DNA of 64,000 nt, taken from positions 996,277 to 1,060,276 of the forward strand of contig NZ_LR881183.1 of NCBI RefSeq assembly GCF_904067545.1. The letters run 5' to 3'. Both the position numbers and the translations under genes were made by a program. Below are positions 33,651 through 36,845 of the stretch, in pieces. The DNA is from Thermococcus camini. Lineage in GTDB: Archaea; Methanobacteriota_B; Thermococci; Thermococcales; Thermococcaceae. The notes below the pieces were generated by a model that had not been told where the DNA came from, made no database searches, and saw only the letters and a program-made list of their open reading frames with translations. How positions within the stretch are numbered: the first letter of the stretch is position 1; each line of letters opens with the position of its first letter.

Positions 33651-34283
33651 ATGAAGGAGGACTACCTAACCGGGGAATTCATAGCGGAGATGGGGGAGAG
33701 GTACTTCAGGCCGAGCAAATGGAGAAAGATTAGGCCGTTCCGGAAGGCGGCGGTTCTGGCGATAGACCTTCAGGCGTATTTCCTCAGGCCAGAGAGCAGG
33801 GCGTTCCTGCCCTCGGCGCCGCGCTTCATTCCGAAGCTGGTGGAGTTCTACGTGGAAGCGGAGAGGCTCGGCGTTCCGCTAATCTTCACCCGTCATTTCC
33901 ACCAGAACGACATCATGACCCGCTGGTGGGGCGGAGACATGCCGAATAACGACCCGTTGAACGAACTTCTCGAAGAGTTCAAGCCCTTCGCCGGAACCGT
34001 CATTGAGAAGAAGACCTACGACGCCTTTCACGGCACTAACCTCGAGGGCCTGCTGAGGGGGCTTGGAGTCGAGACGGTCATCGTAACCGGCGTCATGACC
34101 CACCTCTGCTGTGAAACCACTGCCAGAGAGGCCTTCGTCAGGGGCTTCAACGTCGTCTTCCCCGTCGATGGGACGCTGACCCAGAACAGGCTCTTCCATG
34201 AGGCAACGCTCAGAAACCTCTCCCACGGCTTCGCGGTTACGCCCCTGTTAAAGGAGGTGCTTGAATGGCTCTCGTCGGAATAA
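33651..34283 (+). CDS. isochorismatase-fold cysteine hydrolase
   Basis: A 210-residue cysteine hydrolase of the nicotinamidase/isochorismatase superfamily. The catalytic aspartate is in VLAIDLQAYFL near 36, lysine in IEKKTYDAFHGT near 114, and the cysteine in VIVTGVMTHLCCETTAREAF near 150, a full triad. Amidase substrates such as nicotinamide are possible, but the pocket residues do not tell. It lies 23 bp after the SDR gene and overlaps the flavoprotein gene by 19 bp. Confidence 0.87.
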   Translation: MKEDYLTGEFIAEMGERYFRPSKWRKIRPFRKAAVLAIDLQAYFLRPESRAFLPSAPRFIPKLVEFYVEAERLGVPLIFTRHFHQNDIMTRWWGGDMPNNDPLNELLEEFKPFAGTVIEKKTYDAFHGTNLEGLLRGLGVETVIVTGVMTHLCCETTAREAFVRGFNVVFPVDGTLTQNRLFHEATLRNLSHGFAVTPLLKEVLEWLSSE

Positions 34284-35089
34284 TCGGGGCGGGAATAGGG
34301 GGCATTGCAGCGGCCGTCCAGCTCAAGCGCTACGGGATAGGGAGCGTGATATTTGAGCGCGGCCGGATAGGTGGGCTCATAAGGAACGCCTACTCCGTGG
34401 AGAACACGATGTTCTTCCCAGACGGAATCAAGGGCGAGAAAGTCGTCGAAATCCTTGAGGAGTACGTGAGGAGGTATGGCCTGAAAATCCTCTACGAGGA
34501 AGTCAAGGCCGTGAGAAAGACCGGCGAGCTGTTTGAAGTCGAAACAGAGGAAGGAACTTACCGCTTCAAGTACCTCGTGGTTGCGACGGGGACGAGGCCG
34601 AGAAAGCTTCCCTTCGAGGGGATAGTCTACCACGTCTCTGAAGTCCCGAGGCGGCACTACGGAAGGGTTCTCATAATCGGCGGCGGCGATGTGGCCTTTG
34701 ACTACGCGCTGACGATGAGCGAGACCAGCGACGAGGTAATAATCCTAATGAGGAGCGAGCCGAAGGCCTTGCCCTATCTCCAGGGGCTTGTGAAAAAGCG
34801 CTCAAACATCAGGACGCTGATGGGACAAGTTCGGGAAATAAGGCCCATAAACGGGAAGGGAAAGCTTTTAGCCAGAACGAGCGCTGGCGACTTTGAGGTA
34901 GAGTTAGTGCTCGGGGCCATCGGCAGGGTTCCAAACATCGAGCTGGTTCAGGACATCGAGGACGATAACCTTTTCCTGGTCGGGGACGTTAAGAACGGAA
35001 TCTACAGGCAAACGGCCCTGGCCATAGCCGATGGAATCAAAACCGCGATGGTGATATGGAGGAGGGAGAGGTATGGAGATACTGAGTGA
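34265..35089 (+). CDS. thioredoxin-reductase-like flavoprotein without CxxC
   Basis: A 274-residue two-dinucleotide-domain flavoprotein. FAD binding is by VGIIGAGIGGIAAAVQL (4-20) and GAIGRVPN, and NAD(P)H binding by VLIIGGGDVAFDYAL near 137-151. The ATG at 34265 overlaps the hydrolase gene. The redox CxxC that precedes the second loop in thioredoxin reductases is absent, so it probably passes electrons to another protein or small molecule. The radical SAM protein encoded next, overlapping by 17 bp, is a natural partner because such enzymes need a reductant. Confidence 0.82.
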   Translation: MALVGIIGAGIGGIAAAVQLKRYGIGSVIFERGRIGGLIRNAYSVENTMFFPDGIKGEKVVEILEEYVRRYGLKILYEEVKAVRKTGELFEVETEEGTYRFKYLVVATGTRPRKLPFEGIVYHVSEVPRRHYGRVLIIGGGDVAFDYALTMSETSDEVIILMRSEPKALPYLQGLVKKRSNIRTLMGQVREIRPINGKGKLLARTSAGDFEVELVLGAIGRVPNIELVQDIEDDNLFLVGDVKNGIYRQTALAIADGIKTAMVIWRRERYGDTE

Positions 35090-36020
35090 GGTTGGCGACC
35101 CCAACGTTGCGGTGGTTTATATAGGAAAGACTTCCAAGGGGAACATCGTCGAGTTCGTCGAATCGATTCCGACCTACAATCCGCAAGAAAAGTGGGTTCT
35201 CATAGTTTCATCGCTCAACGGCTGTCCGGTCGGCTGCAAGATGTGTGACGCGGGCTTCTTCTACAAGGGAAGGCTGGACCTCGATGAACTGATGGAGCAG
35301 ATAGAGTATCCAATCCAGAAGCGCTGGAACGGGAAGCCAAAAACCAGGAAATTCAAGGTGCAATTCGCAAGAATGGGCGAGCCGAGCTTCAACATGGCAG
35401 TGATAGAGGCGATGCGGCTTTTGGGCGAGCGTTACGAGAACTTCCACCCGTCGCTCTCCACCGTTGCCCCGATAGGAACCGATAAGTTCTTCGAGGCACT
35501 GCTGGAGCTGAAGAAGGAGGCCTTCCCGACCAACTTCCAGCTGCAGTTCTCGATACACTCCACCAGTCCTGAGCAGAGGGACGAGATAATCCCCGTTAGA
35601 AAGTGGGACTTCGAGAGGATAGCCGAGTACGGTAAAGCTTTCTACGACGAGGGCGGTAAGAAGATTACGCTCAACTTCGCCCTTGCGAGGGAGAACGAGG
35701 CCGATGCTGAAGTCATAGCCGAGTACTTCCCAAGGGAATACTTCCTCATCAAAATAACGCCGCTCAACCCGACGGTGAGTGCCCTAAAGAACAAGCTCAC
35801 CAACGACGTTGACCTTGAGACAGGCCTTCCGATGAAGCACAGGAAGTTTGTTGATGACCTCAGAAGGCTCGGCTACGAAGTCATCATCTCCGTCGGCGAC
35901 ACCAGAGAGAATCTCATCGGCTCGAACTGCGGCCAGTACATCCTCCGCTTCCTCAAAGAGAGACCGGAGCTTAGGGAAGCCTATACCTTCGCGAGGGGGT
36001 TTGAGTTTAAGGTGAGCTGA
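35073..36020 (+). CDS. RlmN-like radical SAM protein lacking the first catalytic cysteine
   Basis: A 315-residue radical SAM enzyme. The cluster motif is CPVGCKMC (C51, C55, C58). The surrounding VSSLNGC and the late GSNCGQY (C286) match RlmN/Cfr, where the last cysteine carries the methyl group. The other RlmN catalytic cysteine (C118 in E. coli, seven residues before the cluster) is isoleucine 44 here. So the fold is RlmN-like but normal adenosine C2 methylation by the two-cysteine route looks impossible. It overlaps the flavoprotein gene, its likely electron donor. Substrate unknown; RNA or a small molecule are options. Confidence 0.83.
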   Translation: MEILSEVGDPNVAVVYIGKTSKGNIVEFVESIPTYNPQEKWVLIVSSLNGCPVGCKMCDAGFFYKGRLDLDELMEQIEYPIQKRWNGKPKTRKFKVQFARMGEPSFNMAVIEAMRLLGERYENFHPSLSTVAPIGTDKFFEALLELKKEAFPTNFQLQFSIHSTSPEQRDEIIPVRKWDFERIAEYGKAFYDEGGKKITLNFALARENEADAEVIAEYFPREYFLIKITPLNPTVSALKNKLTNDVDLETGLPMKHRKFVDDLRRLGYEVIISVGDTRENLIGSNCGQYILRFLKERPELREAYTFARGFEFKVS

Positions 36021-36064: not shown

Positions 36065-36478
36065 ATGAAACTCATGGCAGGGCTCCGCAGGGACTTCCGA
36101 GAGTTCAAAGACTCATGCATGGGGATTCTCCTCTACGGATCTCACGCTAAGGGAGAGGCTACAAGCAGAAGCGACATCGATGTATGCCTCGTTAAGCCAA
36201 AGCCCGGCGTATATGGGGAAGTTCTCCAAAAACTCGGTGGAAAGTACGATATCAAAGTCTTCGAGGAGCTTCCCCTCTACATCCAGATTGAGGTTATCGG
36301 GAACCACAAAGTAATTTACGGCGACGAGGTTGAACTGTCAGAGTACTTCTACCGCTTCCGAAAGCTGTGGAGGGACATGGAGCACAGGATAAAGGAGAAC
36401 CGGTTTGAGAGCGTGAGGGAGAAGATAAGACTCAGGAGGCGTGCCCGTGAGAAGGCACAGGTACTTAGAGAAGCTTGA
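36065..36478 (+). CDS. mntA: MNT-type nucleotidyltransferase antitoxin MntA
   Basis: A 137-residue minimal nucleotidyltransferase. It has GS-x10-DxD exactly (G25, S26, D37, D39), the motif of MntA. In the known HepT/MntA system this enzyme inactivates the toxin by adding AMP to a tyrosine. Its C-terminal helix is strongly basic. GGTGGTTCA precedes the ATG, and the gene overlaps the HEPN gene by 38 bp. Confidence 0.88.
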   Translation: MKLMAGLRRDFREFKDSCMGILLYGSHAKGEATSRSDIDVCLVKPKPGVYGEVLQKLGGKYDIKVFEELPLYIQIEVIGNHKVIYGDEVELSEYFYRFRKLWRDMEHRIKENRFESVREKIRLRRRAREKAQVLREA

Positions 36479-36845
36479 GCGGTTTGAGGAGGAATACGAG
36501 TTCATAAAGAGCCATGAAATGAAGGACGATGTTACCCAGAGGGCCCTCTTCTACTCCCTTCAGCTCTGTGTCGATATAACTATGGATCTTGCAGCAATGC
36601 TTGTTAAGGACTTGGGCATGACCGTTGAAGATGATTATACAAACATCGATCGGCTTAGAAAAGCAAAAGTTATCTCCGAAGATGAAGCCGGACTTTTGAG
36701 GGCGTACAACGGACTTAGAAATGCCATTGTTCACAAGTACGACAGACTTAACCTCGATGCTGTGAGGGAGGGCCTCAGCAGAATTGATGAGCTGTATGAG
36801 ATTGTTATAAAGCTCGTGGAAAAGTATGAAAAGCTGGAAGACTAA
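36441..36845 (+). CDS. hepT: HEPN-domain RNase toxin HepT
   Basis: A 134-residue all-helical HEPN/DUF86 protein. The RNase motif RNAIVHKY (R93, H98, Y100) fits Rx4HxY; Y100 would be the site AMPylated by MntA. The start is GTG 36441 or 36447, inside the mntA 3' end. Its last four bases overlap the end of the convergent amidohydrolase gene. The natural target RNA is probably tRNA, as for known HepT. Confidence 0.88.
   Translation: MPVRRHRYLEKLERFEEEYEFIKSHEMKDDVTQRALFYSLQLCVDITMDLAAMLVKDLGMTVEDDYTNIDRLRKAKVISEDEAGLLRAYNGLRNAIVHKYDRLNLDAVREGLSRIDELYEIVIKLVEKYEKLED

Follow-up and report, generated by a model that had tools for sequence, protein, structure and literature searches.

What does an enzyme built like RlmN and Cfr do when one of its two catalytic cysteines is missing? 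The question is raised by a reading frame at 35073 to 36020 (+ strand) of the window, the 64,000-nucleotide stretch of Thermococcus camini DNA analysed here. It begins with ATG, with GGAGG immediately 5' of the start codon, and encodes a 315-amino acid radical SAM protein of the RlmN/Cfr fold that lacks the N-terminal RNA-binding domain. To our knowledge, radical methylation by RlmN and Cfr has been described as requiring two cysteines, with RNA as its sole known substrate. In the scheme outlined in PMC9692996, PMC13001441 and PMC5130265, a first SAM methylates C355 of RlmN (C338 of Cfr); a second SAM gives rise to a 5'-dA radical that generates S-CH2•, which adds to the adenine carbon; C118 (C105 in Cfr) then deprotonates that carbon, homolysis of the C-S bond follows, and the thiyl radical so formed is reduced. 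Mutating the second cysteine (C118A in RlmN, C105A in Cfr) is described as trapping the covalent adduct (PMC9692996, PMC13001441). The initial annotation of this locus took C118 to be needed for release of the RNA-protein intermediate, a role that recent work, as presented in the same two sources, recasts mainly as that of the base that deprotonates the adduct.

The landmarks on which that annotation drew are all in place. The [4Fe-4S] cluster motif CPVGCKMC (C51, C55 and C58; 35223 to 35246, +) is invariant in 103 of 103 homologues; GSNCGQY (35919 to 35939, +) contains Cys286, the counterpart of the methyl-carrying C355 of RlmN and C338 of Cfr; and the site of RlmN C118 and Cfr C105, seven residues ahead of C51, is Ile44 (codon at 35202 to 35204, +). 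Alignment adds a GEP-type SAM-binding motif, RMGEP (35370 to 35384, +), with a family-specific Arg100. The protein has four cysteines in all, the three cluster ligands and C286, and therefore no other internal cysteine can replace C118.

Is Ile44 a family trait? The 103 homologues that were aligned comprise the 23 copies found in Thermococcales and 80 of 277 confirmed loci in named genomes. (A technical note: L025 and L030 come from one contig, which leaves 102 distinct homologues; contig ends truncate L040 and L047; left out were an RlmN match, L012, a weak match, L002, and four fragments of pseudogenes, L026-L029.) Counted without gaps, the residue at -7 from the first cluster cysteine is Ile in 85, Leu in 9, Met in 5, Val in 2 and Thr in 2, and never Cys; an additional 16 loci, three or more of which repeat earlier ones, have Ile (10), Leu (2), Met (2) or Thr (2), and Cys in none. 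The same count finds Cys at -7 in 8/8 true RlmNs taken from genomes (8 of the 12 genomic RlmN loci above cut-off), and C118 of E. coli RlmN, aligned to the family, falls on the same site. An alignment artefact can be set aside, since gap-free counting gives the identical result. C286, for its part, is conserved in all 102 homologues long enough to cover it, in a loop in which I282 and G287 are likewise invariant (102/102) and Q288 is found in 93. A substitute cysteine elsewhere is out of the question for the window protein and for the 54 of 103 homologues that also have four cysteines in total; stray cysteines at -8 in one of the 103 (L101), and at -4 and -2 in L145 and L143 of the 16 extra loci, are not conserved.

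The initial annotation had proposed that a conserved residue other than cysteine at the C118 site, combined with a conserved C286, would mark a distinct subfamily, and the alignment bears it out (103/103 and 102/102); another cysteine at the C118 site, which it had named as fatal to its reading, was looked for by gap-free counting in the 103 homologues, and there was none. The family is real and distinct, is not RlmN, and shows an unusual natural loss of one catalytic cysteine: it has, by nature, the equivalent of the adduct-trapping mutation while retaining the carrier.

Profile searches and structure place the protein close to RlmN and outside it. Pfam reports Radical_SAM alone (39 bits); the RlmN equivalog model TIGR00048 scores 50.8 bits against a cut-off of 290, and the Cfr models TIGR04432 and NF000424 score 40-43 bits against cut-offs of 530-550. 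TIGR00048 weakly matches all 82 aligned family members (best E 1.2e-18), the family stays below the cut-off of every curated NCBIfam model, and a PDB sequence search matches RlmN and Cfr. The features of class A are divided: the radical SAM core with CX3CX2C and GEP motif is present, and of the two catalytic cysteines the carrier C355 is kept and the base/resolving C118 is missing. An AlphaFold2 model from 82 sequences (mean pLDDT 90, below 50 only at 304-315) has the RlmN/Cfr fold: VIA-align superimposes it on residues 80-371 of E. coli RlmN with Z 25.4 (rmsd ~3 A, 271 residues), on Cfr from residue 66 with Z 18.5, and on other radical SAM enzymes with Z of at most 15.1, and the top Foldseek matches are RlmN-type. 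In RlmN numbering, E105, S120, the cluster motif, GEP, N184, S233, H235, R242, N312, C355 and G356 are retained in the family. Replaced are C118 (by I/L/M/V/T), M176 (Ala99), G177 (Arg100), V174 (Gln97), A229 and A231 (Gln156 and Gln158) and E278 (Asn201).

Beyond Thermococcales the family is common in Thermotogota (45/103) and rare elsewhere: 5/296 in a Bacteroidota-centred sample, 4/251 in a Chloroflexota-centred one and 1/246 around a methanogen, each count including the central genome. The groups that carry it among the named genomes are ones that we take to be largely anaerobic or thermophilic. In a tree the family forms one clade separate from RlmN, on a branch of ~10 changes per column (a saturated estimate), so long that the origin of the family cannot be dated. 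The Thermococcales copies nest among those of DHVE2 archaea, with Thermotogota next, a placement that fits transfer between vent organisms. A search of a plasmid collection returned one distant match, an ordinary and unannotated RlmN/Cfr-like protein that keeps the C118 equivalent (L165, on plasmid OY725877.1 of Subdoligranulum variabile, typed mobilizable).

The strongest clue to function is one that the initial annotation did not contain: the gene is the last of a conserved three-gene module. Directly upstream, and overlapping it by 17 nt, lies a gene (34265 to 35089, +) for a thioredoxin reductase-like FAD/NAD(P) flavoprotein, assigned to the module by conservation, adjacency and co-presence. 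It matches Pfam Pyr_redox_2/3, scores 101.8 bits with TIGR01292 (cut-off 343) and lacks the CxxC redox pair that is the hallmark of thioredoxin reductase; among 52 such proteins no cysteine is invariant or nearly so. Upstream of that, with a 19-nt overlap, is a gene (33651 to 34283, +) for a 210-amino acid isochorismatase-fold cysteine hydrolase, which scores 127.7 bits with PF00857 (cut-off 27) and has a triad, Asp39/Lys120/Cys153, that is invariant in 43 proteins. It falls far under all NCBIfam equivalog cut-offs, and its profile is nearest to that of the EntB isochorismatase 2FQ1 (126 bits). A cysteine nucleophile is typical of the amidase branch of isochorismatase-fold hydrolases.

How tightly do the three genes cohere? 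The operon occurs across Archaea and many bacterial phyla. Clustering of the neighbours at 81 loci (80 named and the window) yields these two conserved partners, both upstream of the rSAM gene, and no third. The flavoprotein is directly upstream at 63 of the 69 loci where 900 nt or more could be searched by profile, and at 65 by inspection (in L074 and L088, missed by the script, its gene and the rSAM reading frame overlap); the hydrolase lies no more than 1.6 kb upstream at 52 of the 66 loci with room for it. Among the 14 genomes in which the hydrolase is not adjacent, 12 hold one of the same subfamily elsewhere (at least 189 bits); G1029 and G125 have the rSAM gene and no hydrolase match at E 1e-15, in a search with three positive controls. 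The flavoprotein is truly non-adjacent in four genomes, three of which hold one elsewhere (313-380 bits); in G1027 the best match, 157 bits, is inside the range of paralogues. For G1029, G125 and G1027 the explanation may be a gap in the assembly or a true exception. In G1030, the genome of L071, the hydrolase and flavoprotein genes adjoin each other at a distance from the rSAM gene; the module can split. Within the window's phylum, intact rSAM, flavoprotein and hydrolase genes are found together in one set of 23 genomes out of 115, and the other 92 have none intact. Pairwise distances of the three proteins are correlated over 52 loci (r 0.77, 0.80 and 0.83; as high in 0 of 1000 permutations), which would also follow from shared vertical descent.

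Two other neighbours were considered as parts of the module and rejected. An upstream SDR gene stands beside it in the six genomes with loci that reach far enough (L157-L164), and its end is visible in L016 and L017; outside those genomes it is not a conserved neighbour. The SDR gene is also present at both of two deletion scars (G074 and G075, L026-L029), where hydrolase and flavoprotein are lost and a frame-broken C-terminal rSAM remnant is left. Directly 3' of the rSAM gene in the window (36065-36845, +) is a type VII toxin-antitoxin-like pair, an MntA-like nucleotidyltransferase (41.8 bits, below the cut-off of 60) and a HepT-like HEPN ribonuclease (65.4, above 60); such a pair adjoins only some Thermococcales copies. 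Only in L095 and L099 is the module immediately preceded by corrinoid-protein, homocysteine S-methyltransferase-like and MTTB-like genes (profile scans covered four genes of L095 and one of L099, and neighbour clustering assigned the remainder). The genomes of these two loci stand apart in the tree, and the block is a possible hint, toward methylated amines, as to substrate.

The company that the rSAM gene keeps in many anaerobes, a hydrolase and a flavoprotein, points to a so far uncharacterised radical reaction with a small molecule as its substrate. The reading that we prefer, which we put a little short of an even chance, is that the protein belongs to a three-enzyme module that acts on a small polar metabolite rather than on RNA. 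By analogy with RlmN and Cfr, C286 would accept a methyl group from the first SAM, and the 5'-deoxyadenosyl radical would convert it to Cys286-S-CH2•; this would add to an sp2 carbon of a substrate held in a family-specific polar pocket (K95, Q97, R100, Q156, Q158, N201 and K227). No thiol base would face the substrate carbon, and the adduct would therefore have to break in some other way: through another base, through one in the substrate itself, or by fragmentation or rearrangement of the adduct radical without deprotonation. The flavoprotein may provide electrons for SAM cleavage and for reduction of the thiyl radical; the hydrolase may prepare the substrate or cleave the product, in a reaction of the C-N or vinyl-ether type. 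Since the hydrolase is EntB-like in profile yet amidase-like in its cysteine nucleophile, the module likely targets a small polar compound, at a C-N or vinyl-ether bond.

Must C286 be a methyl carrier at all? Radical SAM epimerases and spore photoproduct lyase use a cysteine as hydrogen-atom donor. C286 might likewise cycle from thiol to thiyl in an enzyme that epimerises, cleaves or rearranges its small molecule; this is the rival that survives best, a possibility to be taken seriously and still unlikely. It would account for a single conserved non-cluster cysteine and for the absence of both the C118 base and M176, and the dedicated flavoprotein could serve to re-reduce the thiyl radical. 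M176 of RlmN is described as lying near the thiyl and steadying the cysteinyl radical (PMC9692996); with Ala99 in its place, radical chemistry at C286 may diverge more deeply from that of RlmN. The family nevertheless retains the Ile-x3-Cys-Gly(-Gln) loop of RlmN and Cfr, and Cfr offers a further objection. According to PMC3702613, the methyl group on C338 is required there for radical generation, and C338A protein binds SAM while its cluster is not oxidised, which suggests that methylation of the cysteine gates SAM chemistry. A carrier role for C286 is favoured because the C338 methyl controls radical generation in Cfr, as that source reports it.

Might the substrate be RNA after all? The nearest characterised relatives, RlmN and Cfr, are RNA C-methylases, and a rRNA or tRNA adenosine, or another base, could be methylated with a residue other than cysteine acting as the base. 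The niche is free in the window's genome, which has no RlmN above cut-off; canonical RlmN is, however, above cut-off in 11 of the 19 family-bearing genomes tested (a twentieth, G060, has RlmN and no family member). In the model, the N-terminal HhH-type RNA-binding domain of RlmN and Cfr (RlmN residues 1-79) is absent, and the corresponding domain of Cfr is described as touching RNA in the Cfr complex (PMC13001441). Its absence does not by itself exclude RNA: L122, a 286-amino acid RlmN-like protein of the Methanoculleus genome G130, lacks it and keeps both catalytic cysteines (208 bits to TIGR00048, Cys at -7, an ACGQ-type late motif, a very long tree branch), so that short RlmN-like proteins do exist.

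The replaced contacts weigh more. In the Cfr complex, Ser103, Asn288 and Arg327 are named among the residues that contact the ribose and phosphate of the target nucleotide (PMC13001441). Assigning Cfr numbers to columns by counting on the sequence alignment, the site of RlmN T116/Cfr S103 is Thr in 8/8 RlmNs and Val or Ile in 103/103 family members; that of RlmN R344/Cfr R327, 11 residues before the carrier cysteine, is Arg in 8/8 RlmNs and Gly in 102/102 family members; and that of RlmN N307/Cfr N288 is Asn in the six readable of eight RlmNs by gap-free pattern (9/9 by alignment) and Lys in 102/102 family members. Together these replacements argue against an RNA adenosine substrate. As a gauge of RNA binding, isoelectric points speak for neither side: they have a median of 6.6 in the family and range from 5.7 to 9.3 in the eight RlmNs. 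With conserved partners that are a cysteine hydrolase and a flavoprotein, not RNA enzymes, an RNA C-methylase is improbable. The initial annotation's interpretation fares unevenly: the RlmN reaction as known cannot run unchanged, and that part holds; action on RNA is unlikely in view of the missing N-terminal domain, the replaced ribose and phosphate contacts and the metabolic partners in the operon.

The initial annotation also allowed for a stable RNA-protein adduct, which is a poor bet given how well the enzyme is conserved and that it is retained in an operon with two others. More generally, a stable or long-lived Cys286-CH2-substrate adduct, spent in a single turnover or cleaved by the partner hydrolase, is suggested by the resemblance of the natural Ile or Leu to the adduct-trapping C118A and C105A changes described in PMC9692996 and PMC13001441. 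Inactivation after one cycle is nonetheless hard to credit in a clade-wide enzyme that has changed less than its partners (locus-to-locus identity has a median of 0.53, compared with 0.41 and 0.38 for theirs), and we consider such an adduct very improbable.

A decayed RlmN paralogue without catalytic function, for which the lost cysteine and the gene remnants in G074 and G075 might be cited, is scarcely believable in the face of 48 invariant columns in 82 proteins, with the cluster cysteines and GEP motif all kept, and of partners that are also gone where the rSAM gene decays; for the window gene, conservation disposes of a pseudogene.

In its full form the reading that we prefer, a small-molecule module, is held more tentatively: in a radical SAM family not described before, the carrier chemistry may have passed from RNA to a small-molecule substrate, get by with one carrier cysteine and release its product without a thiol base, as one step in an undescribed hydrolase-flavoprotein-rSAM pathway common to anaerobic archaea and numerous bacterial phyla. 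A full-text literature search that covered few subscription journals found no description of the family or its operon. A large natural family that has the carrier and never the base would test the roles of each cysteine, and would show whether the chemistry of RlmN and Cfr can operate on other substrates. The three co-inherited genes form a module that can be co-expressed and screened for a substrate, and the version from hyperthermophilic archaea should have the stability that structure determination and adduct trapping demand.

How, finally, does the family compare with systems already known? It shares with RlmN (TIGR00048; PDB 3RFA, 5HR6, 5HR7) the radical SAM core with its beta extension, CX3CX2C, GEP and the carrier cysteine in a CGQ loop; RlmN differs in having the C118 base, the domain of residues 1-79, T116, M176, N307 and R344, and the family differs from RlmN in its operon with hydrolase and flavoprotein. 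With Cfr (TIGR04432, NF000424; PDB 9P0P) it has in common the fold and the C338-equivalent carrier, whereas C105 and the contacts of S103, N288 and R327 to the substrate nucleotide are replaced. L122 resembles the window protein in missing the N-terminal domain and differs in keeping its cysteine at -7. The partner hydrolase, like EntB/VibB/PhzD, RutB, biuret hydrolase and N-carbamoylsarcosine amidase, is a PF00857 protein with an Asp-Lys-Cys triad; unlike these isochorismatase-fold enzymes it forms a subfamily of its own, tied to the rSAM gene.
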